From: Aurantiacibacter xanthus
GTDB taxonomy: Bacteria > Pseudomonadota > Alphaproteobacteria > Sphingomonadales > Sphingomonadaceae
Length of the DNA: 63,115 nt
Direction of reading: 5' to 3'
Assembly: GCF_003584015.1 (NCBI RefSeq)
Contig: NZ_QXFM01000064.1
Coordinates: 1-63,115, forward strand
Made by a program: the position numbers and the translations under genes. Shown here piece after piece: positions 1,075 to 17,803 of this stretch (within the stretch, counting starts at the first letter, position 1; every line of letters starts with the position of its first letter). The notes beneath the pieces are model-generated. The model searched no databases, had not been told where the DNA came from, and saw only the letters and a list, made by a program, of their open reading frames with translations.

Positions 1075-1123
1075 GCAGTTGCTGACCCGGATGATGGCAA
1101 GGAGTACAGGCGCGGCCAATTTG

Positions 1124-1153: not shown

Positions 1154-1368
1154 CCCGCATCAAACGAAGCGGGTGTCCGGACGTCCCAATCGGATCACCT
1201 GCGAGCTGAGGATGCAGGCATGACCGATTACCCATCGCTCCATATGATGACTGGCGGTGCCGATGCGGCGGCTGGCAGCGCGCAGCGGCCCGGTTGCGGC
1301 AGCGAAGGTGCCCCGGCGCGCGCCACAGCCTGCATCGTCACCAACACCGTGCGCAAGGGGTAGGGCCG

Positions 1369-3021: not shown

Positions 3022-3029
3022 CAAAGACG

Positions 3030-3076
3030 GCGCTGGCCGGGTGCGGGCTTCGATGCAGCCCGCACCCGGCCAGCGC
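3030..3076. terminator. Bidirectional terminator-like inverted repeat, 20-bp stem
   Basis: Bases 3030-3049 and 3057-3076 are perfect inverted complements, giving a 20-bp GC-rich stem with a 7-base loop. The hairpin fills the gap between the convergent MFS and dioxygenase genes (stop codons at 3021 and 3079). There is no long T tract on either side, so the shape suggests termination or 3'-end protection for both transcripts. Confidence 0.6.
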
Positions 3077-3078
3077 GG

Positions 3079-4566
3079 TCAGACGGCTTCGGGTGCAGGT
3101 GCTGACAGGCCGATGTCTTCGGCCCGTGCGAAGTTGCCGTGCAGGCCGAAGCGCAGGCGGATGGGCACCTGAATGGTCGCCAGCGGGCCTTGCTCGATGT
3201 TCAATGCATCGAGGATCAGCAGGTCGCTGCGGTGCTCTTCCAACCGGTTGCAGACCAGCACGATCCAGCCCTCGCCTTCGGGTGCATCCTTGGTGCGCGG
3301 AATGAAGCAGGGCTCCTGCAACGAGGAAACCGGGCCGCACCACCAATGCTGTTCGCTCCCGCTGTCGAGATCTTTCAGGAACAGGCAGTTCATCATGAAG
3401 CCGGTGGCGCTGCCGCCCTTCAGTTCGACCGGGCGCTTCATATCGACCTCCAGCCCCCAGGTGTAGCGGTTCTTCCGCCCGGTGAAGCGATCGTCGATGC
3501 GGGGAAACTCGCTTACGGTGTCGGTCAGGCGGGTTACTTCGGCAAATTCGTCCGTGTTGCTGGCCATGTCCACCGTCCAGCGGGTCAGGCGCGGCATGCC
3601 GGCAACCGGATCGAATGGCGCGCCATGCACGTCGGGGAAGAACGGGAACATGTTGTTCTCAGCCTCGGGCACGATGAAGTGGACCTTCGTCCCCTCCTGC
3701 CAGGCGTTGACGGTGTGGCTGGCAAAGCAGTTGTCGCGCTTGAACCAGCGGATGTCCTCGTTCTTGAGATCGTCGCGCCGCGGGATGATGCCGAGATAGA
3801 CGGGCATCGTCGTGTCGAAGCCGAAATGTGGCTTGCCCTGTTCCAGCCGCTCCCAGCTGCCGATCGAGGGCACGATATGCAGCACGAGACAATCCTCGGT
3901 AATCGCGAAGTCGTGCATCATGCAGTAGTAGGGGGCCTTGAACCACTTCTCCCGCACCATCTGTCCGTCGGGGCCGATCTCCATATAGGAGACATCCTCG
4001 CTGCACAGGCCGCTGGCGGCATAGCCGATGGCGACCATGTTGCCGGTGGCCGGATCGAGCTTGGGGTGGGCGGTGAAGGTCTCGCTCTTCATCAGGCCGT
4101 CGAAGGTCTCGAAGTGCTGCGTTTCCATCGTCACCGGGTCCATGATGAGCGAGGGCGAATCCTCCTTCATCGCCCACAGCTTGCCTGCGAACAGCCAGGC
4201 ATTGGTGTTCGCCGTCGAGCGCAGCCTGCCCTTGACGCTGTCGTCATCGGTGAGGGGATTGCGATAGGCTCCGAACAGCGCCTTGCCGGCAGCCCGTTCC
4301 AGCTTCCACTTGTCGGTCTGGGCCCAGCGTTGCCGGAAGTCGCACTGGCCATCGTGGAAGTGGAAGCGGGTGATCATGCCGTCGCCGTTGAACGGAATGT
4401 CGTCGCCCAGGCGCGGCGGATACTGGGGGTCGGGCTGGACGCGGAAAAAGGCTCCGTTGAGGCCAGCGGGGATCTCGCCTTCATGCGGCAGGTCGAGAAT
4501 ATCCGCCTCGACCCGGCTGGGGGTGTTGAAGCCGGTGAAGTTGGGGGTATCGGGAAAGGTGCTCAT
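3079..4566 (-). CDS. Lignostilbene-alpha,beta-dioxygenase-like carotenoid oxygenase (NOV1-like)
   Basis: A 495-aa member of the carotenoid cleavage oxygenase family: non-heme iron enzymes that split a C=C bond with O2 to give two aldehydes. The four iron-binding His are H167 (TAHPKL), H218 (MMHDF), H284 (SHTVN) and H476 (LHGNF). F59, Y101 and K134 are also present. From memory, these are the same residue numbers as the iron ligands and phenol-recognising residues of NOV1, the stilbene-cleaving enzyme of Novosphingobium aromaticivorans, and Tyr plus Lys are the marks of lignostilbene/resveratrol cleavers as opposed to carotenoid cleavers. Neighbouring GMC oxidases, aldehyde dehydrogenase and a SnoaL-fold protein fit lignin-dimer degradation. 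No signal peptide is visible, so it is cytoplasmic. Family certain; a 4-hydroxystilbene substrate is strongly suggested but not proven. Confidence 0.9.
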   Translation of the reverse strand: MSTFPDTPNFTGFNTPSRVEADILDLPHEGEIPAGLNGAFFRVQPDPQYPPRLGDDIPFNGDGMITRFHFHDGQCDFRQRWAQTDKWKLERAAGKALFGAYRNPLTDDDSVKGRLRSTANTNAWLFAGKLWAMKEDSPSLIMDPVTMETQHFETFDGLMKSETFTAHPKLDPATGNMVAIGYAASGLCSEDVSYMEIGPDGQMVREKWFKAPYYCMMHDFAITEDCLVLHIVPSIGSWERLEQGKPHFGFDTTMPVYLGIIPRRDDLKNEDIRWFKRDNCFASHTVNAWQEGTKVHFIVPEAENNMFPFFPDVHGAPFDPVAGMPRLTRWTVDMASNTDEFAEVTRLTDTVSEFPRIDDRFTGRKNRYTWGLEVDMKRPVELKGGSATGFMMNCLFLKDLDSGSEQHWWCGPVSSLQEPCFIPRTKDAPEGEGWIVLVCNRLEEHRSDLLILDALNIEQGPLATIQVPIRLRFGLHGNFARAEDIGLSAPAPEAV

Positions 4567-4670
4567 GCTCGTGCATCCTCGCAGTCAGTTGGCTTTTTTC
4601 TCCTGATATCCGCAGCTTTCGGCCTTTGCCATCAACCGTCATGGTCGAACGAATCAGCCGGGCTAATGCC

Positions 4671-5168
4671 TCACAGCGCATCGACCTTGGCTTGCAGGGT
4701 CAGCCGGATCTTGTCGATCAGCCCGTCGAACTGCGCGATCTCCTCGGCTGAGAGCGCAGCGGTTATGCTCTGGTGAAAGGCGGTGCGGGTGCGGATCACC
4801 TTGCTGTAGAGTTTGCGCCCCTTCGCCGTCAGCCGCAGCACCTGCGCCCGGCGGTCGGACGGGTCTTCGGTGCGCGACAGCAATTGCTGCTCGGCAAGCC
4901 AGGATACCGCGCGGCTGACCTCGGCGCGGTCGGCCAGCGCCTGCTCGGCGATGCGGCCCACGGTGGCCCCGTCGCGCAATTCGCCCAGCCGTGCGATCAC
5001 CCGCCACTGGGCATAGGTGAGGCCGAATTCGTCGGCCAGCTGCCGGATCGTGAGGCGGTCCATCATCTTCGCCAGCAGAGCCATTCTGAAGGTGGGGTAA
5101 TTAAGCTCTCCCAGACGCCATCCGGGCAGCTCTTCTTCCGCCAGCAGCCTGTCTGCATTTTCGGCCAA
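4671..5168 (-). CDS. MarR-family transcriptional regulator
   Basis: A 165-aa winged-helix protein. A helical N-terminal part (residues 1-45) leads to the HTH (about 55-100: LTYAQWRVIARLGEL, then VGRIAEQALADRAEVSRAVSWLAEQQLL) and the wing with the family signature DPSDRRAQVLRLTAKG (about 102-117), followed by a dimerisation helix. MarR proteins are usually repressors released by a phenolic or similar ligand. The gene is divergent from the GMC/aldehyde dehydrogenase operon, and a palindromic operator lies between them. This makes it the best candidate controller of the cluster, and it probably autoregulates. Ligand unknown. Confidence 0.9.
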   Translation of the reverse strand: MAENADRLLAEEELPGWRLGELNYPTFRMALLAKMMDRLTIRQLADEFGLTYAQWRVIARLGELRDGATVGRIAEQALADRAEVSRAVSWLAEQQLLSRTEDPSDRRAQVLRLTAKGRKLYSKVIRTRTAFHQSITAALSAEEIAQFDGLIDKIRLTLQAKVDAL

Positions 5169-5254
5169 TTTTCGGTCTCCGTCTTAAACCTGGCGCATGC
5201 CGCACGTTGCGCCGACTTGTCTATACCGCTACTGGCCGGTCTGCCATGGAACAT

Positions 5255-5275
5255 TGATTAATCACCTAATAGGTG
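5255..5275. promoter_or_regulatory. Double palindromic operator in the marR/GMC divergent promoter
   Basis: TGATTAATCA (5255-5264) is a perfect 10-bp palindrome. It overlaps a second one, CACCTAATAGGTG (5263-5275), a perfect 6-1-6 palindrome. The pair lies 43 bases before the chosen start of the first GMC gene and 87 bases before marR. The first element matches the GTTGATTAGTCA sites at 1124 and 11230. A homodimeric regulator, most simply MarR, would fit both. Confidence 0.55.
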
Positions 5276-5317
5276 GGCATGGCATGGCGGTCAAAGCCGC
5301 GCAGAAAGAGCGTGGGA

Positions 5318-6979
5318 ATGGGTGAGGTTATGCAGGCGAATTCAGACAGCTTCGATTATATCGTTGTCGGGGCGGGCTCGGCCGGGTGCACGGTGGCTGC
5401 GCGGCTATCCGAAGACCCGCAGGTGCGCGTGCTGCTGGTCGAAGCGGGCAAGCGCGAGCGCGATCCGCTGCTCAGCATTCCGATCGCCTTTCCCATCGTG
5501 ATGAGCAAGCCGCGCTACAACTGGAGCTATTTCGGCGAGGAAGAACCCTATGCCGACAACCGCCGGATACGCCAGCCGCGCGGCAAGGGGCTGGGCGGTT
5601 CCTCGCTGATCAACGGGATGCTCTATGCCCGTGGCCATGCACGCGACTACGATGAATGGCGCCAGCTCGGGCTGGAGGGGTGGAGCTACGAGGACGTGCT
5701 GCCCTACTTCAGGAAATCGGAGAACCACTGGGGCGAGGCCGACGACTATCACGCCACCGGCGGCCCGCTCTCGATCACCAAACATGTCCCCGACAAGGAG
5801 CTGTTCCCGCGCTTCATCGCGGCGACCGAGAAGCTGGGCTACAAGTTTCAGACCGACCATCACGGGCCGGATCAGGAAGGCTGGGGTTCGCCCGATATCT
5901 CGATCCACAAGGGGCGGCGCGGCTCCACCTCCGCGCGGTTTCTGTTTCCGGCGATGGATCGCCCCAATCTCACGGTCGTCTCCAGCGCCCATGCGACGCG
6001 CATCGAGATCCGCGATGGCCGCGCCGTAGCGTTGCATTATCGGCAGGGCGGGCGCGCGGGCCGTGACCACCGGGTAGCGGCAAGCCGTGAGATCATCCTC
6101 AGCGGCGGCACCTACAATTCGCCGCAGCTGCTGATGCTGTCGGGTATCGGCCCGGTGGACGAACTGCGCGAACACGGCATCGACGTGGTTCATGCGCTCC
6201 CCGGCGTGGGGCGCAACCTGCAGGACCATCCCTCGATCGCGATGATCTGGCAGGCGGTTCGCAAGGTCACGCTCAACCCCGAGCTGCGCTATGACCGGAT
6301 CGCGCTGTCGGGCCTGCAATGGTTGCTCACCGGCAAGGGGCGGCTTGCCAACATGCCGGTGACGGCCAACGGTTTCATCAAGACCCGGCCCGATCTCGAA
6401 CGGCCCGATGCGCAATGCCTGCTGCAACCCACCACCATCTTTGCCCGCCCGTGGTTTCCGGGCATCCGCAAGTCGGCTGACGATGTGATCTCGATGGCCT
6501 GCGTGCTGCTGCGCGCGCAAAGTCGGGGCTGGGTCAAGCTGCGCTCGGCCGATCCGTTCGATGCGCCGCGCATCCTCAACAATGTGCTGAAGGAGGAGGC
6601 CGACCGCGCCTTCTTCCACCGCCTGATCCCGCAGATCCGCGAAATCATGGCCACCTCGCCCATGCCAGATGTGATCAGGGGCGAAATCGCGCCCGGTCCC
6701 GATGTGCAGTCGCCCGACGAGATCGACGGCTGGCTGCGGCAAGCCACCAACACCGCGCTGCACCCCACCAGCACCTGCGCGATGGGCATCGGCGAGGACG
6801 CCGTGTGCGATGCGCGGCTGCGGGTGCGCGGGCTGGCAGGGCTGCGCGTGGCCGACGCATCGGTGATGCCGCGCATCGTCGGCGGCAACACCAATGCCGC
6901 CGCCATCATGATCGGCGAAAAAGCCGCCGACCTTATCCGGCAGGACCGCCAGCAGACGCACAGCAAGGTGGCAGCATGA
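5318..6979 (+). CDS. GMC-family FAD-dependent alcohol oxidase/dehydrogenase 1
   Basis: A 553-aa glucose-methanol-choline oxidoreductase that oxidises a primary alcohol to an aldehyde with FAD. The FAD-binding GAGSAG lies at 18-23, GLGGSSLINGM (GMC signature 1) at about 91-101, SGGTYNSPQLLMLSGIGP (signature 2) at about 262-279, the catalytic His482 in LHPTSTCAMG, and the second active-site motif GGNTNA at 522-527. I chose ATG 5318 because AAGAG lies 7 bases upstream; GTG 5273 would start inside the operator palindrome and ATG 5330 has poor spacing. It overlaps the next gene by four bases (ATGA). Sphingobium SYK-6 PhcC and PhcD, which oxidise the side-chain alcohol of phenylcoumaran lignin dimers, belong to the same family. 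A similar role is inferred. Confidence 0.9.
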   Translation: MGEVMQANSDSFDYIVVGAGSAGCTVAARLSEDPQVRVLLVEAGKRERDPLLSIPIAFPIVMSKPRYNWSYFGEEEPYADNRRIRQPRGKGLGGSSLINGMLYARGHARDYDEWRQLGLEGWSYEDVLPYFRKSENHWGEADDYHATGGPLSITKHVPDKELFPRFIAATEKLGYKFQTDHHGPDQEGWGSPDISIHKGRRGSTSARFLFPAMDRPNLTVVSSAHATRIEIRDGRAVALHYRQGGRAGRDHRVAASREIILSGGTYNSPQLLMLSGIGPVDELREHGIDVVHALPGVGRNLQDHPSIAMIWQAVRKVTLNPELRYDRIALSGLQWLLTGKGRLANMPVTANGFIKTRPDLERPDAQCLLQPTTIFARPWFPGIRKSADDVISMACVLLRAQSRGWVKLRSADPFDAPRILNNVLKEEADRAFFHRLIPQIREIMATSPMPDVIRGEIAPGPDVQSPDEIDGWLRQATNTALHPTSTCAMGIGEDAVCDARLRVRGLAGLRVADASVMPRIVGGNTNAAAIMIGEKAADLIRQDRQQTHSKVAA

Positions 6980-8634
6980 CCTTTGATTACATCATCGTGG
7001 GCGCCGGTTCGGCCGGCTGCGTGCTGGCCAACCGGCTGAGTGCAGATCCGCGCAACAGCGTGCTGCTGCTGGAGGCGGGCGGGGAGCACCGCCATTTCCT
7101 GCTCGACATGCCGCTCGGCATGATGCGCGCGATGCTGAAGCCGCAGTTCACCTGGCGCTACAAGTCTCAGCCCGAGCCGCATCTGGGCGGACGCCAGATC
7201 ATGTTGCCGCGCGGGCGGGTGCTGGGCGGATCGTCGTCGATCAACGGCATGTTCTACATGCGCGGCCATTCGAGCGACTTCGACGAATGGCGCCAGCAGG
7301 GCTGCACCGGCTGGAGCTATGCCGAGGTGCTGCCCTACTTCAAGCGGATGGAAACGCACTGGAGCGACGACACCCGCTGGCACGGCCACGACGGCCCGCT
7401 CGAAGTGGTGCCGGTGCAGACGGCCAAGCGCCTCCATGAACCGCTGATGCAGACCGCAAAGGCCGCAGGCTTCAACACCAGCGAGAACCTGAACAGCGAG
7501 GTTGAGGAAGGCTTCGCCCGCGGCGAGCTGACCGTCGACCGCCATGGCCGCCGCGCCAGCACTGCGCGGGCCTATCTCGACCCGGCGCGGGGCCGGGCAA
7601 ACCTCACCGTGATCACCGGCGCGCTGACCCGCAAGGTGCTGCTCGATGGCAAGCGCGCGACCGGGATTGAGTTCGATCACGAGGGCGAACGCAAGACCGC
7701 CAGCGCGCGCACCGAGGTGATCCTGTGCGGGGGCAGTTACAATTCGCCGCAGCTGCTGATGCTGTCGGGCATCGGCCCGGCGGCGCATCTGCGCGACAAG
7801 GGCATCGCGGTCGCGCACGAGCTGCCCGGCGTCGGCCGCAACCTGTCCGAGCATCCGCGCGTGCCGGTCCATTTCGGGCTGCAGAAGCCGGTCAGCTTCC
7901 TTAACGAGCTGCGCGCCGACAAGGTGGCGCTGTCGGTGCTGAAATGGCGACTGCTGGGCACGGGCAGCTTTGCCAGCCAGCTCAACAGCTGCAACATCGT
8001 GATCCGCACGCGGCCCGAACTTTCGCGGCCCGATATCCAGTTGTGGAGCAACCCGGTGCGCATGGATGCGCAGATCTGGTTTCCCTTCTTCCGCAAGCGG
8101 CAGGACGATCGCATCACCGCCGACGTGATCCTGCTGCACCAGCAGAGCCGGGGCTGGCTCGAACTGGCCTCGGCCGACCCGGCGGATTTCCCGGCGATCA
8201 CGCTCAACCTCTTTGCCGATCCCGCCGACATGCGCACGGCCCGCGACGGCATCCGGCTGGCGCGGCGGATCTATCGCACCGAGCCTCAGGCGAGCCTGAC
8301 CGGCGAGGAAATCCTCCCCGGCGAGGACGTGCAGAGCGACGACCAGCTCGACGCCTATATCCGCGCCCGCGCCGAGGTGACGCAGCACCCGGTCGGCACC
8401 TGCGCGATGGGCACCGGCTCGATGAGTGTCGTCGATCCGCAGTTGCGCGTGCACGGCATCGCCGGTCTGCGCGTGGTCGATGCCTCGATCATGCCGACCG
8501 TACCGGGCGGCAACACCAATGCGCCCACGATCATGGTGGCGGAAAAGGCCGCCGACATGATCCTCGGCAAAGACCCGCTTCCCGCGCAGGATCTGCGCAA
8601 CTCCCCCCAAGACCAGTCAGGACACAGCCTATGA
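6976..8634 (+). CDS. GMC-family FAD-dependent alcohol oxidase/dehydrogenase 2
   Basis: A 552-aa paralogue of the preceding gene, with the same order of motifs: GAGSAG near the N terminus, LGGSSSINGM, GGSYNSPQLLMLSGIGP, the His of QHPVGTCAMG, and GGNTNA near the C terminus. It starts within the stop codon of the first GMC gene, and its own stop overlaps the aldehyde dehydrogenase start (ATGA both times), so the three are translationally coupled. Two similar GMC enzymes side by side suggest division of labour, for example the two enantiomers of a chiral dimer, as reported for PhcC/PhcD. An alternative is that they act on different alcohols. Confidence 0.9.
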   Translation: MTFDYIIVGAGSAGCVLANRLSADPRNSVLLLEAGGEHRHFLLDMPLGMMRAMLKPQFTWRYKSQPEPHLGGRQIMLPRGRVLGGSSSINGMFYMRGHSSDFDEWRQQGCTGWSYAEVLPYFKRMETHWSDDTRWHGHDGPLEVVPVQTAKRLHEPLMQTAKAAGFNTSENLNSEVEEGFARGELTVDRHGRRASTARAYLDPARGRANLTVITGALTRKVLLDGKRATGIEFDHEGERKTASARTEVILCGGSYNSPQLLMLSGIGPAAHLRDKGIAVAHELPGVGRNLSEHPRVPVHFGLQKPVSFLNELRADKVALSVLKWRLLGTGSFASQLNSCNIVIRTRPELSRPDIQLWSNPVRMDAQIWFPFFRKRQDDRITADVILLHQQSRGWLELASADPADFPAITLNLFADPADMRTARDGIRLARRIYRTEPQASLTGEEILPGEDVQSDDQLDAYIRARAEVTQHPVGTCAMGTGSMSVVDPQLRVHGIAGLRVVDASIMPTVPGGNTNAPTIMVAEKAADMILGKDPLPAQDLRNSPQDQSGHSL

Positions 8635-10145
8635 CCATGCCCGTCGACACCTCGATCCTTCCCGATCTGCGCCAGGATCTTGCCGCCCGCTCGCGCGAGC
8701 TTTTCATCGGCGGCAAGTTCCAGCCCGCCCAGTCGGGCGAGACCTTCGCCGTGATCGACCCGGCAACCGGCGAGGAATTCGCTTCGGTCGCATCGGGCGG
8801 CGCGGCGGATATCGACCTTGCGGTGAAGGCGGCGCGCAAGTGTTTCGATAGCGCGGCATGGTCGGGCAAGACCCCGGCGGAACGCGCCCGCGCGCTCACC
8901 CGGCTGGCCGATCTGGTGGAGGCCAATGGCAGCCGCATCGCGCTGACCGAAACGCTCGACAACGGCATGCCGATGATGATGGCCTTCTTCGGCGGAGTGG
9001 CCGCAGCCTCCGAGCAGCTGCGCTATAACGCGGGCTGGGCGACCAAGCTCAACGGCGAGACCTTCACGCCCTCCAACCCCGGCGAATGGCACGCCTTTAC
9101 CACGCGCGAGCCGGTGGGCGTGGTCGGCGCGATCGTGCCGTGGAACTTCCCCTTCGTGATGGCCGTGGCCAAGATCGCCCCGGCGCTGGCAGCGGGCTGC
9201 ACCGTGGTGCTCAAGCCCGCCGAGCAGACGCCGCTGTCCGCCGTGATCCTCGCCGAACTGATCGCCGAAGCGGGCTTTCCCGAAGGCGCGGTCAACATCG
9301 TGACCGGATATGGCAAGACGGCGGGCGCGGCGCTGGTGGAGCATCCGCTGGTCGACAAGATCTCCTTCACCGGCTCCACCGCCACGGGCAAGGGGATCGT
9401 CCATGCCTGCACCGGAAACCTCAAGCGCGTGACACTCGAACTGGGCGGCAAGAGCCCGGTGGTGATCTTCGACGACGCCGATCTCGCCAAGGCTATTCCG
9501 GGCACGGCGATGGGGATCTTCGGCAACGCCGGGCAGGTCTGCGCGGCGGGCTCGCGCCTGTTCGTGCACGAGCGGGTGCGTGACCAGGTCATGGAAGGGC
9601 TGGCGGGCTTTGCCCGATCGCTCAAGCTGGGATCGGGCCTGTCGCCCGACACGCAGATGGGGCCGCTCGTCAGCCAGGTGCAGTTCGACCGCGTGAGCAG
9701 TTATATCGACAGCGCCACCAGCGAGGGCGCAACGGCGGTGGCCGGCGGCGCTGCGGCAGCGGTGGAGGGGCACGAAGGCGGCTTCTTCATGCAGCCGACC
9801 GTGCTGAGCGACACCGCACCGGGCATGAAGGCCGTGGAAGAGGAAATCTTCGGTCCGGTCCTGTGTACGCAGACCTTCGGTGACGACGATCTGGAGCAGG
9901 TCGCCGCCGCCGCCAACAACACGACCTTCGGCCTCTCATCGGCGATCTGGACGCGCGACATGTCGACCGGCCTCAAGCTGGCGAAGCGTATTCGCGCCGG
10001 CATGGTGCGGATCAACGGCGGCGCGGGCGGCCCCGATCCGGCCATGCCGCTGGGCGGTTTCAAGCAGTCGGGCTGGGGCCGCGAAAATGGCCGCAACGGC
10101 ATCGAGGCCTATACCGAGATCAAGTCGGTAACGATTAACCTCTAA
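8631..10145 (+). CDS. NAD(P)-dependent aldehyde dehydrogenase
   Basis: A 504-aa member of the aldehyde dehydrogenase superfamily, which oxidises an aldehyde to a carboxylate. Visible landmarks: the IVPWNFP cofactor/oxyanion segment (168-174), VVLKPAEQTPL (192-202), FTGST (246-250), the general base E270 in VTLELGGKSP and the nucleophile C304 in GQVCAAGSR. The length is normal for the family. It is the third gene of the overlapping GMC operon, so it very probably receives the aldehyde made by the GMC enzymes. The start is fixed by the ATGA overlap. A substrate such as a phenylcoumaran or diaryl propanoid aldehyde is inferred from context. Confidence 0.92.
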   Translation: MTMPVDTSILPDLRQDLAARSRELFIGGKFQPAQSGETFAVIDPATGEEFASVASGGAADIDLAVKAARKCFDSAAWSGKTPAERARALTRLADLVEANGSRIALTETLDNGMPMMMAFFGGVAAASEQLRYNAGWATKLNGETFTPSNPGEWHAFTTREPVGVVGAIVPWNFPFVMAVAKIAPALAAGCTVVLKPAEQTPLSAVILAELIAEAGFPEGAVNIVTGYGKTAGAALVEHPLVDKISFTGSTATGKGIVHACTGNLKRVTLELGGKSPVVIFDDADLAKAIPGTAMGIFGNAGQVCAAGSRLFVHERVRDQVMEGLAGFARSLKLGSGLSPDTQMGPLVSQVQFDRVSSYIDSATSEGATAVAGGAAAAVEGHEGGFFMQPTVLSDTAPGMKAVEEEIFGPVLCTQTFGDDDLEQVAAAANNTTFGLSSAIWTRDMSTGLKLAKRIRAGMVRINGGAGGPDPAMPLGGFKQSGWGRENGRNGIEAYTEIKSVTINL

Positions 10146-10164
10146 GGCTTCCAAGGCCGTCATG

Positions 10165-10194
10165 CGGGGCGCAGTTGCTCATTTGCGCCCCGCG
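10165..10194. terminator. Stem-loop after the GMC/aldehyde dehydrogenase operon
   Basis: GCGGGGCGCA (10165-10174) pairs perfectly with TGCGCCCCGC (10185-10194) around a 10-base loop, 19 bases after the aldehyde dehydrogenase stop. There is no T tract, so it may be a weak terminator or a 3'-end stabiliser that separates the operon from the LysR gene. Confidence 0.45.
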
Positions 10195-10292
10195 CCCTGA
10201 AAAACGCCGTCGCGTGGCCGGAGAGGGCAATGGCCAGCTCCGGCAACGCCTGCTATTTGCCGGAGCAATTCAGGCTTGGAGAGGAGCTGGAT

Positions 10293-11213
10293 ATGCGGAG
10301 CGGGCGACTGAGAGATCTCAATCTCAACCATTTGCTGACGCTTGATGCCGTGCTCGAACACCGCAACCTGACGCGCGCGGCCGAGCAACTCGACGTGACG
10401 CAGGGCGCGATCAGCCAGTCGCTTTCCCGGCTGCGCAGCTTCTTCAACGACGAACTGCTGGTGCGGGTAGGCAACGCGATGGAGCCGACCGCGCTTGCCA
10501 GCAGCCTTCAGGGGCCGGTCGCCGAGGTGCTGGGGTCGATTGAATCGAGCATTCTGGCCAAGGCCAATTTCGACCCGCTGACGGCGCAGGGCACGCTCAA
10601 CATCTGCATGACGGATCTCGGCGAGTTTATCTTCCTGTCGGAACTCCAGTCGCGGCTGGCGCAAGCGGCCCCCAACATGAGCATCGCCACGCGCGCCCTG
10701 CCGGACACCGATCTTGCCGGATACATGGCGAAGGGAAAGATCGACCTCGCCTTTGCCGGACCGATTGATGAGGTCGCCGATCTGAAGGTGCAGAAAATTC
10801 TGGAGCATGAACTGGTCGCGCTCGTCTCGCGCGAATGCCCTTTGCCCGACCGGATCACGGCAGAGGAATACGTCTCGCTGCCGCATGTGGTGTTCGATTC
10901 TCCCTACATTAAGCGCGTCAGGATCGAGCAGACGATGGCGCGCATGGGGCTGACGCGCCAGATCGCCTTGCGCACACCCAACGCGCTCAGCCAGCCGTTC
11001 CTGCTGGAGCGGAACCCGAACCTGATCGTCACCGTGCCGCGCATCCTTGCTGAACGGATGGCGCGGGTGTTGCCGCTGCGCGTGTTGCAGCTCGATTTCG
11101 AAGTACCAAGGCTCGACGTGTTCCAGTATTGGCACCCGCGCTTCGACCGGCATGGCCCTTCGCAATGGTTGCGCAAGCTGGTCGTCGAGCTGTGCGCGGA
11201 AATCGCGCACTAG
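10293..11213 (+). CDS. LysR-family transcriptional regulator
   Basis: A 306-aa LysR-type regulator. The N-terminal HTH reads LNHLLTLDAVLEHRNLTRAAEQLDVTQGAISQSLSRLR in outline (about residues 10-47) and is followed by the periplasmic-binding-protein-like effector domain. ATG 10293 is chosen because GAGGAG stands 6 bases before it; the longer ATG at 10230 has no such site. LysR proteins usually activate neighbouring or divergent genes on binding a pathway intermediate. It lies between the GMC operon and the TonB receptor gene, so either could be a target. With MarR it gives the cluster two potential regulators. The effector is unknown. Confidence 0.9.
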   Translation: MRSGRLRDLNLNHLLTLDAVLEHRNLTRAAEQLDVTQGAISQSLSRLRSFFNDELLVRVGNAMEPTALASSLQGPVAEVLGSIESSILAKANFDPLTAQGTLNICMTDLGEFIFLSELQSRLAQAAPNMSIATRALPDTDLAGYMAKGKIDLAFAGPIDEVADLKVQKILEHELVALVSRECPLPDRITAEEYVSLPHVVFDSPYIKRVRIEQTMARMGLTRQIALRTPNALSQPFLLERNPNLIVTVPRILAERMARVLPLRVLQLDFEVPRLDVFQYWHPRFDRHGPSQWLRKLVVELCAEIAH

Positions 11214-11229
11214 TCCTCCCGCGAAATTC

Positions 11230-11241
11230 GTTGATTAGTCA
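11230..11241. promoter_or_regulatory. Putative operator upstream of the TonB receptor
   Basis: GTTGATTAGTCA here is identical to the copy at 1124-1135 and close to the palindrome at 5255-5264. It lies 175 bases before the receptor start, in the 202-base gap after the LysR gene, and is followed by TGCTAATGG. I read it as the third operator of the catabolic regulon. Confidence 0.5.
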
Positions 11242-11415
11242 TGCTAATGGTCGTGATTTGACCGGGTAAGTTGCCCGGCCGCCGGGACGCTGAGATCATC
11301 CCTGCGTTCGCTTGCGGGTGCCTTGGAGAGGGTCGCCTGAGGGAAACATGAATTCATGTCTCTCGGGCTGATCGCGGTGCGAACGCCAAAAATGTCCTTG
11401 GGAGGAGATAGGGTG

Positions 11416-13782
11416 ATGACGTTCAAGTCGAGGTTGTTGATGACGGCTGCTCTGGCGGCTGGTTATGCCGCATGTTCGGCTCCGGCGCTGGCGCAGGATG
11501 AAACGGAACGACCGGGGCAGGCGGCCGGGAACAATACCATCGTCGTGACCGCGCAGTTCCGCGAGCAGTCGCTGCAATCGACGCCGCTCGCCATCACCGC
11601 GATCTCGTCCGAGATGCTCGATGCGCGGAGCCAGACTTCGGTGGCCGAAATCGCCGGACAGGCGCCGTCGGTGACGCTCAAGCCGCAGGGCACGGCATTC
11701 GGTCCGGCGCTTGGCGCGTCGATCCGTGGTGTCGGTCAGTTCGACTTCAACCCCGGGTTCGAGCCGGGGGTCGGCCTTTATGTCGACGATGTCTACTACG
11801 CGACTTTGACCGGTTCGATCCTCGATCTGCTCGATCTGGAGCGGGTGGAGGTGTTGCGCGGACCACAAGGCACGCTGGCGGGCAAGAATTCCATCGGCGG
11901 CGCGATCAAGCTCTATTCGCGCCAGCCGAAGGGCGACGGATCGGGCTTTGCCTCGGTCACTTACGGCAGCCGCAACCGGCTGGACTTCCGCGGCGCCTAC
12001 GATCTGGGCATCGCCGAGAACGTCGCCTTCCGGGTTTCTGCCGTTTCCAAGGTGCAGGACGGCTATGTCGACCGTATCGACTATGGCTGCGCCTTCCCCG
12101 ACAGCGGCATTCCGGCGCTCACCACCACCGAGGAGGGCTGCGTCGTCGATCGCAACGGGCAGGTGAACTATCAGGCTGTGCGCGGGCAACTGCGGATCGA
12201 GGCGACCCCCGATATCGAGATCAACATCTCCGGCGATTACACCACCGACAACCGCAATTCGCCCGCCGGTGTCCTGACGGTTGCGGACTATCAGGGCGCG
12301 GGCTTCATCGACCCCTATGGCTCGGGCGCGAAGTACGATTCCCGGTTCATCTGCGGCAAGTTCTGCAACTATGCCGGGTTCCAGTCGCCGGCGCAGGCCG
12401 GGCCGCTGGGGCCACTCAGCCCCAATGGTTATGAGCAGTCGGTTTCGCGCGATGAGGTCGATCTGGAAGCCTATGGCTTTGCCGCCACGATCGACTGGAA
12501 GCTGGCCGACAATCTCGCGCTCAAGTCGATCACGGCCTATCGCGCCTATGAAGCGTTTTTCGGGAACGACGACGACTATTCGCCGCTCGCGCACAGCCTC
12601 GGGCGCAGCAACATCGACTTCTGGTCGTTCAGCCAGGAGCTGCGGCTTTCGGGCACGCTGGCCAACGGCCTGCTCGATTATACCGTGGGTGGGTTCTATC
12701 AGGATCAGAAGTCGGTCTATCTGACCTTCCAGGATCTGCGCTATGCCGCGCCCGGTTTCCCGCCCTTCATCGGCACCGATACCTTGCCGGCGGATACGAA
12801 GGCGGTGTTCGCCCAGCTAACCCTCAACCCGACCGAGCGGCTGACGCTGCTGGCGGGCATCCGCTATACCGAGGAATCGAAGAACACCACCTACATGCGC
12901 AATCGCCCCGATGGCACGCCGCATCCGCTGCTCGGATCGCTGAACGATGTCACCGGCAGCTATTCGGGCGATCAGGTAGATTACCGCCTGAGCGCGCAGT
13001 ATCAGATCACCGACGAGGTGATGGCCTATGCGCAGGTTTCCACCGGGTTCAAGGGCGGCGGCGTCAGCCCGCGTCCCTTCGCGGCGGCGCAGGTTATCGA
13101 CTTCGCACCGGAGACGCTCGACAGCTATGAAATTGGCCTGAAGTCCGACCTGTTCGATCGCATCGTGCGGTTGAACCTCACCGGGTTTTACATGCGCTAT
13201 GACGATATCCAGCTCAATCTGCTGGAGTGCCCCGATATCAGCCCGGCACTGCCCAGGCCGTGCCCGATCACCCGCAATGTGGGCGCGGCGAACATCAGCG
13301 GGTTCGAGGCCGAGGTGTTCATTCGGCCGGGCGGCGGGTTCCAGCTCGATGGCGCGCTGAGCCATATCGACTTCGACTTCCGCGAAAGCGCGAAGGCGCG
13401 GCTGGCAAGCGTGGGCATCCCGCTGAGCGACACCACACCCTACAACCCCGACTGGAAATGGAGCCTCGGCGCCCAGTACGAGGCTGCGCTCGGCAATGGC
13501 AGCACGCTGACGCCGCGCATCGATGCCTCCTATCAGAGCGACATCTATTCGCGCTCGCCCAACACCCCGTCCTCGAAGATCAGCGCCTACACCCTGGTCA
13601 ACGCGCGGCTGAGCTATTTCCATGCGCCGGGCGATTGGGAGCTTGCTCTGGAAGTCTCCAACCTGCTCGACAAATACTACTACGTCACAAGCTTCGACCT
13701 GCTCGGAGCTGGCGGCGGCATTGTGGCGGCCCAGCCGGGGCGGCCACGCGAATGGGCGGTGTCGCTGCGCAAGAACTTCTGA
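11416..13782 (+). CDS. TonB-dependent outer membrane receptor
   Basis: A 788-aa TonB-dependent transporter. A signal peptide (MTFKSRLLMTAALAAGY... with cleavage after ALA near residue 26) leads to a TonB-box-like NTIVVTAQ, the plug domain (IRGVGQF; VEVLRGPQGTLAGKNSIGGAI) and a long beta-barrel ending in an aromatic residue (RKNF), as outer membrane proteins do. The start is set by GGAGGAGATAGGGTG immediately upstream. Family members of this length in sphingomonads import non-siderophore substrates such as lignin-derived aromatics and plant compounds. The genetic context and the shared operator suggest this one imports the dimer or stilbene used by the cluster; I see nothing specific to iron uptake nearby. 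Confidence 0.92.
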   Translation: MTFKSRLLMTAALAAGYAACSAPALAQDETERPGQAAGNNTIVVTAQFREQSLQSTPLAITAISSEMLDARSQTSVAEIAGQAPSVTLKPQGTAFGPALGASIRGVGQFDFNPGFEPGVGLYVDDVYYATLTGSILDLLDLERVEVLRGPQGTLAGKNSIGGAIKLYSRQPKGDGSGFASVTYGSRNRLDFRGAYDLGIAENVAFRVSAVSKVQDGYVDRIDYGCAFPDSGIPALTTTEEGCVVDRNGQVNYQAVRGQLRIEATPDIEINISGDYTTDNRNSPAGVLTVADYQGAGFIDPYGSGAKYDSRFICGKFCNYAGFQSPAQAGPLGPLSPNGYEQSVSRDEVDLEAYGFAATIDWKLADNLALKSITAYRAYEAFFGNDDDYSPLAHSLGRSNIDFWSFSQELRLSGTLANGLLDYTVGGFYQDQKSVYLTFQDLRYAAPGFPPFIGTDTLPADTKAVFAQLTLNPTERLTLLAGIRYTEESKNTTYMRNRPDGTPHPLLGSLNDVTGSYSGDQVDYRLSAQYQITDEVMAYAQVSTGFKGGGVSPRPFAAAQVIDFAPETLDSYEIGLKSDLFDRIVRLNLTGFYMRYDDIQLNLLECPDISPALPRPCPITRNVGAANISGFEAEVFIRPGGGFQLDGALSHIDFDFRESAKARLASVGIPLSDTTPYNPDWKWSLGAQYEAALGNGSTLTPRIDASYQSDIYSRSPNTPSSKISAYTLVNARLSYFHAPGDWELALEVSNLLDKYYYVTSFDLLGAGGGIVAAQPGRPREWAVSLRKNF

Positions 13783-13918
13783 TCGAACCGCGCCGGGTTC
13801 CTGCACCTCCCAAGGAGCCCGCCACGGTCATATCTCGCCAGTGGAGCGTGATTGCCCCTCGCTTCGCTGGCATTTTTTGGCCGAATGTCTGCTGATTCCA
13901 AATAATTGAAAGGGTTGT

Positions 13919-15571
13919 ATGTCGTTGCCAATTGTCATCGTGGGGGCGGGGCCGGTCGGCCTGTGCCTGGCGATCGATCTTGCCATGAGAGGGGTCGAGG
14001 TGACGGTAGTCGACACACGTCACCCGCGCGAAATACCCACCGTGCGGTGCAATCACGTCTCGTCCCGAACGATGGAGACCTTCCGCCGCATGGGCATCGC
14101 CGGGAAGGTCCGCGAGGCGGGGCTGCCCGACGACTATCCCAACGACATCGTGTTCCGCCCGGTGGCGACGCGCGAGGAATTCGCGCGCATCCACATCCCC
14201 TCGCGCCGCGACCGCTTTTCCGACACCGGTTCGCCCGATGCATGGTGGCCCACGCCCGAGCCGCCGCATCGCTGCAACCAGATCTTCTTCGAGCCGCTGC
14301 TGTTCGATCGCGCCGCTTCGCTTGACCGGATCACGATCCTCAACCGCACGAGCGCCGAGGCCTTTACCCAGGGCCCTGACAGTGTGACCCTGTCGCTGCG
14401 CGATCTCGACACGGGCCGGGACTATGAGCTTGAGGGGGCCTATCTGGTGGGCTGCGATGGCGGTCGCTCGATGGTGCGCAAGGGGATCGGCGCAAGGTTG
14501 CAAGGCGATGCCGAGATCCAGAAGGTGCAGTCGACCTATTTCCGTTCGGCCGAACTGGCGGCACTGATACCGGGCGAACCGGGGTGGATGACCTACCTCT
14601 ATCACCCCGAGCGCGCCGGCAACCTGCTGGCGATCAACGGGATCGATACCTGGCTGCTGCACAACTACCTGCTCCCCGGAGAGAGCGATTTCGACGCAGT
14701 CGACCGCGATGGCTGTCTGCGCATGGTGCTGGGGGTGGGGCCGGAGTTCGAATACGAATTCCTCGCCTGCGAGGACTGGATCGGACGCCGCCTGGTTGCC
14801 GATTCCTTCCGCGACCGGCGGGTATTCCTCGCCGGCGATTCCGCGCACCTGTGGGTGCCCTATGCCGGGTATGGCATGAACGCAGGCATTGCCGATGCGA
14901 TGGACCTCTCGTGGCAACTGGCCGCCTGTGTGCAAGGGTGGGGCGGCGAGGCGATGCTCGAAGGCTATGTGGCCGAGCGCAAGCCGATCACCGAGCAGGT
15001 CTCGCGCTTTGCGATGAACCACGCGGGCAAGGCGATTGCCGAACGCACGACAATCCCGGGCAATTTCCTCGACGAAACGCCCGCAGCGCAGGAGGCTCGC
15101 GCCGCCCTAGGTCGCGAGGCCGAGCGCCTGCACGTGCAGCAATTCGCCTGCGCGGGCCTGAACTTCGGCTATTTCTACGACCAGTCGCCGCTGATCGCCT
15201 ACGATGGCAGCGCGATGCCCGCCTATACCATGGCAGACTACACGCCCTCCACGGTGCCGGGGTGCAGGGCGGCGCACTTCTGGCTTGCTGACGGACGTTC
15301 GCTCTATGACGCGCTCGGTCAGGGTTACACATTGCTGCGGCGCGATGCCGATGTCGCGATCGCCCCGCTGGTAGCGACGGCGCAGAGCTTTGACATGCCG
15401 CTGGAGGTGCTCGATCTGGCTGCGGAGCAGGTGCCCGGCTGCTACGAGCACGGTCTGCTGATCGTGCGGCCCGACCAGCATGTCGCCTGGCGCGGCAATG
15501 CGCTTCCCGATGATGTGGAGGCGCTGGTGAAGACATTGTGCGGGCACATCGCCGTGCCTGCGTCAGAGTGA
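13919..15571 (+). CDS. FAD-dependent aromatic hydroxylase, class A flavin monooxygenase
   Basis: A 550-aa flavoprotein of the para-hydroxybenzoate hydroxylase / MhpA-like class, which inserts one oxygen atom into a phenolic ring using NAD(P)H. The three hallmark motifs are present: GAGPVG near residue 9 (FAD), the DG motif LVGCDGGRSMVRKGIG near 176-191, and the GD motif VFLAGDSAHLWVPYAGYGMNAGIADA near 302-327. The C-terminal 150 residues form the thioredoxin-like tail of the longer subgroup. AAAGGG precedes ATG 13919 by four bases. It lies 11 bases before the SnoaL-like gene and is probably co-transcribed with it. Hydroxylation of a monoaromatic product of stilbene cleavage is one possibility. 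The substrate is not determinable. Confidence 0.88.
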   Translation: MSLPIVIVGAGPVGLCLAIDLAMRGVEVTVVDTRHPREIPTVRCNHVSSRTMETFRRMGIAGKVREAGLPDDYPNDIVFRPVATREEFARIHIPSRRDRFSDTGSPDAWWPTPEPPHRCNQIFFEPLLFDRAASLDRITILNRTSAEAFTQGPDSVTLSLRDLDTGRDYELEGAYLVGCDGGRSMVRKGIGARLQGDAEIQKVQSTYFRSAELAALIPGEPGWMTYLYHPERAGNLLAINGIDTWLLHNYLLPGESDFDAVDRDGCLRMVLGVGPEFEYEFLACEDWIGRRLVADSFRDRRVFLAGDSAHLWVPYAGYGMNAGIADAMDLSWQLAACVQGWGGEAMLEGYVAERKPITEQVSRFAMNHAGKAIAERTTIPGNFLDETPAAQEARAALGREAERLHVQQFACAGLNFGYFYDQSPLIAYDGSAMPAYTMADYTPSTVPGCRAAHFWLADGRSLYDALGQGYTLLRRDADVAIAPLVATAQSFDMPLEVLDLAAEQVPGCYEHGLLIVRPDQHVAWRGNALPDDVEALVKTLCGHIAVPASE

Positions 15572-15582
15572 GGAGAGATACC

Positions 15583-16092
15583 GTGACGAACCAGGTCTAT
15601 TCTGCAAGCTATGCGCAGGATCGCGCAGAAATCGAAGATCTGCTGGCGCGATACCTGTTCGCGCTCGACTGGAACGACTTCGAAACCTTCGGCGAGACTT
15701 TCACCGAGGATGCGACCTTTGAATATGCGCGCGGCACCGCCTCGGGACGCGATGCCATCGTCGCGACCATTCGCGGCTTCAAGGAGCGGATCGGCACGCT
15801 CTACACAGATGACAAGGGCAACCCGGCGATATTGCGCCATGTGCTCGGACAGACGGTGATCCGCATGGAGGGCGAGCGCGCATGGACCACCGCATTCTGG
15901 TGGGAGATGGCCAACAACGGGCCGGGAAACTCGCCGCTGATCGGCACCTTCGGGATTTACGAGGACGAACTGCGCAAGGACAATGGAGCATGGAAGTTCA
16001 GCCGCCGCCGCGTGCTCAACGAGTTCCTTGAAGGACGGCAGTCGAGCGTTGAAAACCCGGTTCTTGCGATGGATGCCATTGCCAGCGCCTAG
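15583..16092 (+). CDS. SnoaL/NTF2-fold protein, possible lignin-dimer lyase
   Basis: A 169-aa single-domain protein of the SnoaL-like / nuclear transport factor 2 superfamily. It has the usual N-terminal helices (AEIEDLLARYLFALDWNDFETFGETFTEDATFEY) and the curved sheet (RHVLGQTVIRMEGERAWTTAFWWEM). GTG 15583 is preceded by AGGAGAG at 5 bases; the gene begins 11 bases after the flavin hydroxylase. The superfamily includes SnoaL cyclases, steroid isomerases, scytalone dehydratase and the cofactorless sphingomonad gamma-formaldehyde lyases LdpA and PcfL, which turn lignin dimers into stilbenes. Because a NOV1-like stilbene cleaver is in the same cluster, a lyase role is an attractive but unproven inference. 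It could also be a dehydratase or an accessory protein. Confidence 0.8.
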   Translation: MTNQVYSASYAQDRAEIEDLLARYLFALDWNDFETFGETFTEDATFEYARGTASGRDAIVATIRGFKERIGTLYTDDKGNPAILRHVLGQTVIRMEGERAWTTAFWWEMANNGPGNSPLIGTFGIYEDELRKDNGAWKFSRRRVLNEFLEGRQSSVENPVLAMDAIASA

Positions 16093-16134
16093 CTGATGAG
16101 GCGGGCGTTATATCGACATGCTAGGGCAGCATGC

Positions 16135-17184
16135 CTAGTCTGCTTCCAATTCCTCGAGCCGCTTGAGGATTGCCTCTTCGTGCTGGTAGATGTCGATGGG
16201 AGCACCGACGGGGTGGCGGGTTTCGTCCTTGCCCGCAAAGGTCCCGAAGTGCCGGCTGGTGGGGCTGTTGAAGTGTAGCCGGGCGATACTCTTCCGGTTG
16301 TTGTCGTCGAGCAGGATCGCACAGTACGACTTCGCGTCGCGCATGACGATGCGCTTGGGATCGACCTTGCGCGCGCCAATGGCCCGCACGATGTTGAAGC
16401 CTTCGATCTCGTCTTCGGTGGTGATGATCTCGCCCTGCGGATCTGCGGGCAGTTCCTCAAGGTCTTCCCCACCATTGTTGAGAGCTGATGTCAGTCGCGC
16501 ATTCACTCGATCGCGGACGAGGCTCGCCATTGAGCTTACGATCAGCGCGCTGAAGGTCTCCTTCACGGCGGAAGTGAAGCGGCCGGGTGAGACGCGGGCA
16601 GCAATCAGCCGCACAAAGTCTTCCGAAGGTTCTTGCATCTCCTTCTCAAGCTCTTTGTAGACCAGGCTCTGAAGCTTCAGCTTACCCGCTTCCTGAACGA
16701 TCATCTCGACGTCGAAACGTCCCTTGGTGAAGGCCTCCAGCGTCCGCAGGTCTGCCTTGCGAACCGCTTCCACGTCGAGCGTGAAGAACGGGCGCTCGTC
16801 CATGCGATTGGGCACGTCGATGTCGGAAAAGAATTTGTAGACGACGCCGTTTGTCAGAATAGCGAGCCGCGCGTCGGTGACGCTGAAGTAACGAAACAGT
16901 TGCGAGGCATGATTGATGCTAAGTTCGGATTGCGCGGGCTTGCATTCGAGGAGAATGGCGATCTGGTCGCCGTTGCGAATGGCGTAATCGACCTTTTCGC
17001 CCTTCTTGGTCCCCACGTCGCAGGTGAATTCCGGCACCACCTCGGACGGGTTGAACACGTTGTAGCCAAGTGCCTGAATAAACGGCATCACGAGGGCATT
17101 CTTGGCGGCCTCTTCGGTTGCGAGTACGTCCCTGTGATCGCGAATTGTCTTGGCCAGATCTGCGAGCTTGCTTTCCAATTCCAT
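16135..17184 (-). CDS. Orphan HsdR-N-domain (PD-(D/E)XK) restriction-type protein
   Basis: A 349-aa protein with an N-terminal domain like that of type I restriction subunit R. ATEEAAKNALVMPFIQALGY is followed by the nuclease core: D66 in KVDYAI, then E80-C-K82 in LLECKPA. Thus D66-x13-E80-x-K82 is the PD-(D/E)XK signature, with E25 as the helix Glu. No helicase motor follows, and no methylase or specificity gene is adjacent. Residues about 240-349 form a separate domain that I do not recognise. Related stand-alone proteins are widespread and usually uncharacterised; defence against foreign DNA or a DNA-processing role is possible. The surrounding bases look less GC-rich than the neighbours, and the gene abuts a tRNA, both mild signs of acquisition. 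Confidence 0.75.
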   Translation of the reverse strand: MELESKLADLAKTIRDHRDVLATEEAAKNALVMPFIQALGYNVFNPSEVVPEFTCDVGTKKGEKVDYAIRNGDQIAILLECKPAQSELSINHASQLFRYFSVTDARLAILTNGVVYKFFSDIDVPNRMDERPFFTLDVEAVRKADLRTLEAFTKGRFDVEMIVQEAGKLKLQSLVYKELEKEMQEPSEDFVRLIAARVSPGRFTSAVKETFSALIVSSMASLVRDRVNARLTSALNNGGEDLEELPADPQGEIITTEDEIEGFNIVRAIGARKVDPKRIVMRDAKSYCAILLDDNNRKSIARLHFNSPTSRHFGTFAGKDETRHPVGAPIDIYQHEEAILKRLEELEAD

Positions 17185-17349
17185 GTCGCCGTCCCCTGAT
17201 ATGTCATTGCAAGCTATCGTAACGATTTATGGGTGCAAGCATATTTGGGATTGTCAGAAAAGTATTGGCAAGCCGACACCGGCAATGCGGCCCTCGAACG
17301 GGGCGCCTTGCGGCGGTTAGTCGCGTGACATTGTCATGAAGAAATAAAA

Positions 17350-17426
17350 TGGTCGGGGAGAGAGGATTCGAACCTCCGGCCCCTGCCTCCCGAAGACAGT
17401 GCTCTACCAGGCTGAGCTACTCCCCG
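17350..17426 (-). tRNA. tRNA-Pro (anticodon CGG)
   Basis: A 77-base cloverleaf on the minus strand. The acceptor stem is CGGGGAG/CTCCCCG with discriminator A and a genomically encoded CCA. The D stem is GCTC/GAGC, the anticodon stem CTGTC/GGCAG with loop TTCGGGA (anticodon CGG), and the T arm GGAGG-TTCGAAT-CCTCT. Starting with C1 and pairing to G72 is usual for bacterial tRNA-Pro. Confidence 0.95.
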
Positions 17427-17466
17427 ACCGGAGCCAACAGACGTTGTGCTGTAAGGCAGGAGCGCG

Positions 17467-17495
17467 CCTATATGCAGGCTCGGCAATGCACGCAA
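17467..17495 (-). promoter_or_regulatory. Probable sigma-70 promoter of tRNA-Pro
   Basis: On the minus strand, TTGCGT (17495-17490) and TATAGG (17472-17467) are separated by exactly 17 bases. The -10 hexamer lies about 40 bases upstream of the tRNA 5' end. Confidence 0.55.
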
Positions 17496-17803
17496 GCGCT
17501 TTGTTACGCAATTCGCCAGAGATCTGCGGGCAATGCGGCCTTTCTCCTTGGCGAGGCAGCCGAAAACCTCCTTCGCCATTTCGCACCGCAAGGCCGTTCT
17601 CCCTGATCCCGGCGCTGAGCCTCAGGCGAATCGTCTGCCGTTCCGCTGCCTGCGATTAGCCGCTGTGGCAGCTGTCCGGTCTGGCTCGGGTGCGGGCATG
17701 CCGGTTGCAATCACCCTCTGACATGGCGCAAGGGTTCTGGCACTCTCGGCACCTCGGACATGCAACGTGTTCGCCGCGCACGAGTATCTAGTCAGGAGCG
17801 ATT
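17496..17803. other. Gene-free gap between tRNA-Pro and the epimerase gene
   Basis: Apart from the tRNA promoter at its left edge and AGGAG before the epimerase start at its right edge, I see no supported gene, hairpin with T tract or repeat here. Short open frames in it lack ribosome binding sites and recognisable sequence. Confidence 0.5.

Follow-up and report, generated by a model that had tools for sequence, protein, structure and literature searches.

A probable beta-5 lignin-dimer gene cluster with a second LsdD-type dioxygenase and a putative MarR switch in Aurantiacibacter xanthus

Introduction

Do the genes that surround a dioxygenase of the NOV1 type in Aurantiacibacter xanthus form one pathway for lignin dimers, and if so, which linkage would they serve, how would they be controlled and where did they come from? 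The window analysed here is the entire contig C52 of 63,115 bases, which belongs to a genome of 4.38 Mb in 146 contigs (G, C and L numbers denote genomes, contigs and fetched loci). A first-pass annotation of positions 3079-16092 had proposed a lignostilbene catabolic cluster, in which the dioxygenase is accompanied by two GMC oxidases, an aldehyde dehydrogenase (ALDH), a SnoaL-fold protein, a flavin hydroxylase (FMO), a carrier of the MFS family and a TonB receptor. Among the linkages of lignin, the beta-5 (phenylcoumaran) type is described as ranking second in abundance (PMC11323797). In Sphingobium SYK-6 the dioxygenase genes are scattered, and which of them serves the pathway there is called unclear (PMC8191317). 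The results presented below make it likely that the cluster is a compact gene set of the SYK-6 type for beta-5 lignin dimers, which was acquired horizontally and carries a MarR repressor of its own.

Results

The dioxygenase is the central element of the cluster. The seven residues that the first pass had assigned to the iron and phenol-binding positions of NOV1 (H167, H218, H284, H476, F59, Y101 and K134) were all read directly at the NOV1 numbering, together with E135, S283, F307 and F309, and the alignment of the protein with NOV1 (5j53) is gap-free across residues 1-488 (931 bits). It scores 848.4 bits on the NCBIfam model NF053778 (LigStilDioxAlpha, cut-off 800). Carotenoid cleavage was rejected: the carotenoid family model has a cut-off of 675, and the enzyme scores 221. 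A tree was built from 31 hand-picked rows, as many as in the GMC tree. It joined the window protein to the copy of A. rhizosphaerae GH3-10 (L009) with support of 100/100 inside a 27-row clade (100/100), which holds LSD4, a lignostilbene dioxygenase (LSD) of SYK-6. By these comparisons the enzyme is of the LsdD/NOV1 type, and it is predicted to cleave lignostilbene and DCA-S (DCA, dehydrodiconiferyl alcohol). The A. xanthus genome contains eight genes of this family, as many as the LSD homologues described for SYK-6 (PMC8191317). Contig C107 carries another LsdD gene, 79% identical to the window copy, in a standard lsdD locus with a LigW-type amidohydrolase gene (63%) and FerD (76%, the gene being cut at the end of the stretch) nearby; LigW-type genes were gauged against the amidohydrolase gene next to ferD in SYK-6, which was labelled from its position and is not SLG_07850. 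The MarR gene product adjoining this standard lsdD reaches 234.5 bits on NF053777 (cut-off 200) and is of the Saro_0803 type. The window dioxygenase is a second LsdD copy alongside standard lsdD. A further member of the family, on contig C9 (L095 9802-11487), adjoins a SnoaL protein that is 54% identical to that of the window, and near its start lies what we take to be a twin-arginine-like export signal, which suggests an exported stilbene-cleaving enzyme.

The two GMC oxidases had been described as coupled, and this is correct, since the GMC1/GMC2 and GMC2/ALDH junctions are each a 4-base overlap of stop and start. The identity to SYK-6 proteins amounts to 68% for GMC1 (gene at the phcC position), 62% for GMC2 (phcD position), 58% for ALDH and 33% for MarR. 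In the SYK-6 locus, relatives of GMC1 and GMC2 stand on either side of a small gene, ALDH and MarR genes adjoin, and an LSD gene lies upstream. The published designations are phcC SLG_09480, phcD SLG_09500, lsdB SLG_09440, phcF SLG_09360, phcG SLG_09370 and ferD SLG_12800, as listed in PMC12997858. Called SYK-6 genes counted from the LSD gene (SLG_09440) match this numbering both ways, and a count from lsdD yields ferD. Therefore, GMC1 corresponds to PhcC and GMC2 to PhcD, which are described as GMC oxidoreductases acting on DCA-C (PMC8191317). In the GMC tree, GMC1 falls within a 13-row PhcC clade (100/100), and GMC2 forms with rows from L009, L208 and L139 (95/90) a sister group of ten canonical PhcD rows, the joint fork being supported by 94/92. 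The analogy with PhcC, PhcD and LsdD drawn by the first-pass annotation is thereby borne out, and GMC1 and GMC2 are predicted to be DCA-C oxidases.

Among 298 family genomes (own genome counted), GMC1 matches at E<=1e-150 were found in at least 30, own included; the genome counts for GMC1, FMO and MarR are lower bounds, because scoring was limited to the best few candidates of each genome. In all 13 other fetched loci where GMC1 reaches at least 65% identity, GMC2 and ALDH relatives stand beside it, with ALDH on the opposite strand. Two of these 13 stretches of 20 kb hold an LSD at 39-40%, and in none of the 13 was an LsdD-type gene found. An arrangement with GMC1-GMC2-ALDH all in one direction was observed in the window, L009, L139 and L208.

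The MarR gene (4671-5168), the LysR gene and three rare intergenic sites are additional to the genes named in the first pass. Orthology of the window MarR with Saro_0803 was rejected, as it scores 31.4 bits on NF053777, below the cut-off of 200. The target of Saro_0803 is given as the inverted repeat GCAATA-TATTGC (PMC10046596), so that its switch and that of the window MarR differ. In the parts of the literature covered by our search, no regulator of this kind was found for the window MarR. A repeat search detected a 24-base repeat upstream of both the MFS and the TonB gene, and its core was widened to TTGATTARTCA after a third copy had been spotted by eye. This core occurs three times in the window (1125, 5254 and 11231), always between genes, against 0.02 expected, a count that is post hoc because the window itself served to define the site. 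The whole genome contains four copies, three of them in the cluster (before the MFS, GMC1 and TonB genes) and the fourth on contig C86 before a gene of unknown role; the reversed control pattern does not occur in it. In the 3.4-Mb genome of A. rhizosphaerae the site is present once, in the MarR-GMC1 gap, while G314 and G328 have one each, located elsewhere, and G165 and G117 none.

The occurrence of the site was then compared between sets of loci. Nine MarR matches of at least 43% identity were obtained, eight of which had a locus and were checked (a second G327 match was outside the set). In these eight loci (window included, 27.7 kb), the exact site was counted in four and a version with at most one mismatch in six, the corresponding counts being 1 and 7 for 22 MarR loci below 42% (73 kb), 0 and 2 for 29 GMC control loci (132 kb) and 1 and 5 for 79 other lsdD loci (1.52 Mb), where the lone exact site lies upstream of FerD in L022. 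L174 and L175 (MarR 49%, LSD 59%, FMO 62%) have three sites each: one ahead of a PhcF-like gene (42-43%), one between MarR and LSD and one ahead of a TonB gene. In L208 (G327), a GMC1-GMC2-ALDH-MarR unit stands beside FerD (77% to SYK-6), the site preceding both FerD and GMC1, and L209 (G375) has it ahead of a PhcF-like gene. Of the 15 sites collected, 13 lie 48 to 244 bases upstream of the start of the next gene. Most close MarR relatives, though not all, have the site nearby, where it precedes LSD, FerD, PhcF-like or TonB genes. Since it follows MarR into loci without this LysR, the window MarR is proposed as the putative binder of TTGATTARTCA and putative repressor of the cluster. As a separate observation, a GTTGTTGAATCATCA-like element is common to the phcD/ALDH gaps of SYK-6 and a relative (L134 13259-13274, L136 13382-13397) and is perhaps the site of their own MarR.

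The origin of the cluster was approached through its flanks and relatives. In the same-genus assembly G308 (L160; 84% complete, 3% contamination), the OEP gene and the tRNA-Pro flank of the window (positions 2-1075 and 17297-17505) both align, with 792 bases between them instead of the 16.2 kb of the window. In the fetched 20 kb of G314 and G328, the tRNA and the region right of it alone match the window; NuoG of G328, which is taken as A. suaedae GH3-15, is 97% identical to that of the window. The gene search in these two genomes covered LSD genes only, and each has one LsdD-type gene (78-79%, next best 49%). The lsdD loci comprised the best 80 of 233 confirmed stretches, some shortened by contig ends, and just one of them, that of A. 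rhizosphaerae, holds the five-gene core with LSD (LSD 88%, GMC1 86%, GMC2 91%, ALDH 94%, MarR 68%); the core is also present in G327, with FerD replacing the dioxygenase. The gene set and order had been thought new as a unit, and this stands for the full order including LysR-TonB-FMO-SnoaL, which among the fetched loci was found only here, but not for the core. For 26 core proteins matched between the two species, the identity ranges from 35 to 95% (median 79.7%), overlapping the 86-94% of the cluster enzymes, so identity alone does not decide the origin. In the LSD tree, the standard copies of A. xanthus and A. rhizosphaerae are placed apart from the joined window and L009 copies. The gap in L160 and the LSD tree support a transfer of the cluster; horizontal acquisition is probable, and simple vertical inheritance is disfavoured. 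A classic integrative element at the tRNA-Pro was rejected, as neither an integrase family among the called genes nor an end repeat among the repeat families was found. The region on one side of this tRNA differs in all four genomes compared (window, L158, L159 and L160), as at an insertion hot spot.

All surrounding genes named in the first pass are present with the expected domains, and only the MFS gene (1369-3021) lies just outside 3079-16092. MFS carriers of the window type occur in 58 of the 80 lsdD loci (45-61% identity). The flavin hydroxylase was found in at least 6 of the 298 genomes, own included. Its relatives (61-62%) stand with MarR and LSD relatives within 20 kb in G115, G032, G375 and G357, and in G375 also beside PhcG (70%), FerD (62%) and a LigW-type gene (49%). 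This repeated company suggests that the hydroxylase probably takes part in dimer catabolism. Its top-scoring solved relatives are RebC, 2,4-dichlorophenol 6-monooxygenase, RdmE and 2-hydroxybiphenyl 3-monooxygenase. The G375 locus (L209) brings together, in about 20 kb, relatives of LSD7-like, FMO, PhcG, PhcF-like, MarR, TonB, MFS, LSD, FerD and LigW-type genes, which comes close to a complete beta-5 pathway at a single place.

The SnoaL protein is 47% identical to a protein near FerD in SYK-6. A PcfL-type query (the L069 protein, labelled by gene position) gave nine matches in the genome at E<=0.001 and none on the contig of the window, the SnoaL protein thus not being matched. Its predicted fold (mean pLDDT 80.5) has many NTF2-like matches, with LdpA first at rank 14 (20% identity). 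A role as stilbene-forming lyase finds no support in the sequence, and the fold search was uninformative. Contig C132 encodes a PcfL/LdpA-type protein (L167 9784-10482; 45-46%), with two TonB receptors nearby (41-47% to that of the window), and the genome may therefore also hold the formaldehyde-lyase route.

The genome contains ten DUF3237 genes, none of them on C52. Two, on contig C134, are 66% (phcG position) and 61% (phcF position) identical to SYK-6 genes; hydrolase, TonB, NTF2 and MFS genes surround them, in a likeness to the SYK-6 neighbourhood that was judged by eye. The earlier view that the parts fit one pathway is supported by the shared site and the repeated gene neighbours, through which the MFS, GMC operon, TonB and FMO genes are tied together, and has to be amended for the stilbene-forming PhcF/PhcG step, encoded on C134 and not in the cluster. 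The oxidation-decarboxylation route is reported as common in Erythrobacteraceae apart from Novosphingobium (PMC11323797); therefore, it is the packaging, and not the pathway, that is new in this lineage. Contig C63 (L092, L163), with two dioxygenase-family genes, GMC genes 55% and 43% identical to GMC2 and three DUF3237 genes, looks like further dimer-catabolic loci.

Table 1. Features of the putative dimer cluster and its borders in the window.
Feature	Position	Strand	Remarks
Stretch absent from same-genus G308	1076-17296		16.2 kb, whole cluster inside; L160 alignment
Operator-like site TTGATTAGTCA	1125-1135	+	244 bases before MFS start
MFS transporter	1369-3021	+	Type seen near lsdD in other sphingomonads, 45-61% identity
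LsdD/NOV1-type lignostilbene dioxygenase (predicted)	3079-4566	-	495 aa; second LsdD copy of the genome
MarR-family regulator	4671-5168	-	Not Saro_0803 type; proposed cluster repressor
Operator-like site TTGATTAATCA	5254-5264	+	Between the divergent MarR and GMC1 genes, 64 bases ahead of GMC1
GMC1, GMC oxidoreductase	5318-6979	+	PhcC clade
GMC2, GMC oxidoreductase	6976-8634	+	Group sister to PhcD clade; 4-base overlap with GMC1
ALDH	8631-10145	+	58% to SYK-6 ALDH adjoining phcCD; 4-base overlap with GMC2
LysR-family regulator	10230-11213	+	Additional to the genes of the first pass
Operator-like site TTGATTAGTCA	11231-11241	+	209 bases before TonB receptor start
TonB-dependent receptor	11440-13782	+	Start uncertain, alternative 11356
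FAD aromatic-ring hydroxylase (FMO)	13919-15571	+	PRK06126 subfamily
SnoaL/NTF2-fold protein	15583-16092	+	Begins 11 bases past hydroxylase stop
HSDR_N-domain (type I restriction) protein	16135-17184	-	Within inserted stretch; outside pathway
tRNA-Pro (CGG)	17350-17426	-	Immediately past right boundary of inserted stretch

Discussion

The gene content may be arranged into the following scheme. The TonB receptor and the MFS carrier would import the dimer, and the side-chain alcohol of the coumaran would be oxidised to the carboxylate by the PhcC-/PhcD-type GMC oxidases and the coupled ALDH. PhcF/PhcG-type decarboxylases encoded on C134 would open the ring to give the stilbene, which the LsdD-type dioxygenase would cleave into two aromatic aldehydes, and the FerD relative and the LigW-type amidohydrolase of the standard lsdD locus would process the cleavage products. 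MarR bound at TTGATTARTCA would shut the MFS, MarR-LSD/GMC and TonB promoters until a pathway intermediate releases it. In this scheme we infer the substrate, the direction of regulation, its ligand, the transport roles and the roles of the hydroxylase and the SnoaL protein.

Several observations weigh against this interpretation. GMC2 is sister to the canonical PhcD clade and not within it, and the identity of GMC2 and ALDH to their SYK-6 counterparts is only about 60%, so that the substrates may differ. A standard lsdD locus already exists in the genome, and the window copy may therefore serve another stilbene. The PhcF/PhcG relatives lie outside the cluster, on C134. As to the transfer, no Pfam integrase family was found among the 12 genes called in 1-17184, and no flanking or tRNA-end direct repeat among 16 repeat families. 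The window and genome counts of the site are post hoc, and the reversed control pattern occurs once in G328. Moreover, the exact site is absent from four of the eight MarR loci at 43% or more, two of these four (L184 and L185) show no one-mismatch version either within about 1.5 kb, 14 phcCD loci (269 kb) are without the exact site and have a one-mismatch version in L139 only, and no site was found between the window MarR and LSD genes. Finally, the LysR protein could be the regulator instead.

The doubts about the substrate lead to the alternative that survives best, although we regard it as rather unlikely: the cluster may act on a different stilbenoid or dimer, such as resveratrol-type plant stilbenes or another phenylcoumaran, with the GMC oxidases and ALDH acting on a related alcohol. 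A second LsdD copy under a different regulator and the 58-62% identity of GMC2 and ALDH to SYK-6 would suit such a specialisation, and the activities of SYK-6 LSDs are described as overlapping (PMC8191317). However, Ser283, F307 and F309 match the description given there of LSD4, and GMC1 shares 68% identity with the phcC-position gene. The company of the regulator likewise points to the beta-5 pathway, as FerD carries the site in G327, and PhcG and PhcF-like genes occur with a related MarR in G375.

It is improbable that the cluster consists of two unrelated neighbours, one being a phc-lsd unit that runs from MFS to ALDH and the other a LysR-TonB-hydroxylase-SnoaL operon that serves a different aromatic compound. 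Such a division would fit A. rhizosphaerae, which shares the five-gene core only, and the position of LysR directly before the TonB gene. It would also fit the FMO loci of G191, G253 and G230, whose fetched stretches showed no LSD match; in G253 and G230, the neighbours presumably resemble ring-cleavage genes, judging by eye. However, the identical rare site stands before the MFS, GMC1 and TonB genes alike, and the rare hydroxylase accompanies MarR and LSD relatives in four genomes.

Little weight is given to LysR (10230-11213) as the binder of TTGATTARTCA in place of MarR: it adjoins one site, dyads of this size also suit LysR proteins, and a 34% LysR adjoins the MarR of L212, yet L212 has no site. 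A. rhizosphaerae keeps the site between MarR and GMC1, although a search of the genes in its fetched 21 kb, the part of that genome covered, gave no relative of this LysR (E<=1e-8), and in L174 and L175 the site lies beside MarR.

The preferred interpretation thus remains a beta-5 cluster under its own MarR. Its new elements are PhcCD-type genes linked to a captured copy of LsdD, a distinct MarR accompanied by a rare site that several genes share, a flavin hydroxylase that repeatedly keeps such company, and a transfer that is probable. More tentatively, the private MarR-TTGATTAATCAA switch, which differs in family and site from the resveratrol-responsive Saro_0803, might define a transferable beta-5 regulon spread over several sphingomonad genera, with a second lsdD freed from Saro_0803-type control and a new FMO/SnoaL branch; we consider this extension somewhat doubtful. 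The presence of an LsdD-type dioxygenase beside PhcC-/PhcD-type genes with a shared site provides genetic support for LsdD as the dioxygenase of the pathway. The cluster offers a compact gene set, movable between strains, and its regulator and site are candidates from which a dimer biosensor might be built. It also makes the hydroxylase and the SnoaL protein testable, to which the literature covered assigns no role.

Comparison with known systems

The comparison with the lsd and phc genes of SYK-6 and N. aromaticivorans, suggested in the first pass, revealed beta-5 relatives of the SYK-6 type and, in the cluster, no regulator of the Saro_0803 type. A similar arrangement is that of A. rhizosphaerae GH3-10 (L009), in which MarR-LSD likewise diverge from GMC1-GMC2-ALDH, with one site in the MarR-GMC1 gap; in contrast to the window, relatives of the MFS, LysR, TonB, FMO and SnoaL genes were not found in its 21 kb, and its flanks presumably hold copper-type genes, judging by eye. 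The pcfL-ferD-ligW-lsdD genes of N. aromaticivorans with Saro_0803 share the dioxygenase family (NOV1 is LsdD there) and the MarR gene beside it. However, the window MarR stays at 31 bits where the Saro_0803 model requires 200, a PcfL-type gene was not found in the cluster, the GMC route replacing the formaldehyde lyase, and the site is unlike GCAATA/TATTGC as given in PMC10046596.

The phcCD/phcFG/lsdD genes of SYK-6 (SLG_09480, 09500, 09360, 09370 and 12860) likewise comprise PhcC/PhcD-type oxidases with linked ALDH and MarR genes and an LsdD-type dioxygenase, and PhcF and PhcG relatives also exist in the A. xanthus genome. A distance of about 0.4 Mb separates lsdD and phcCD in SYK-6, and ALDH is divergent there from the GMC genes, whereas the window has an overlapping GMC1-GMC2-ALDH series with a divergent MarR-LSD pair adjoining it, and its phcFG relatives are located elsewhere in the genome.

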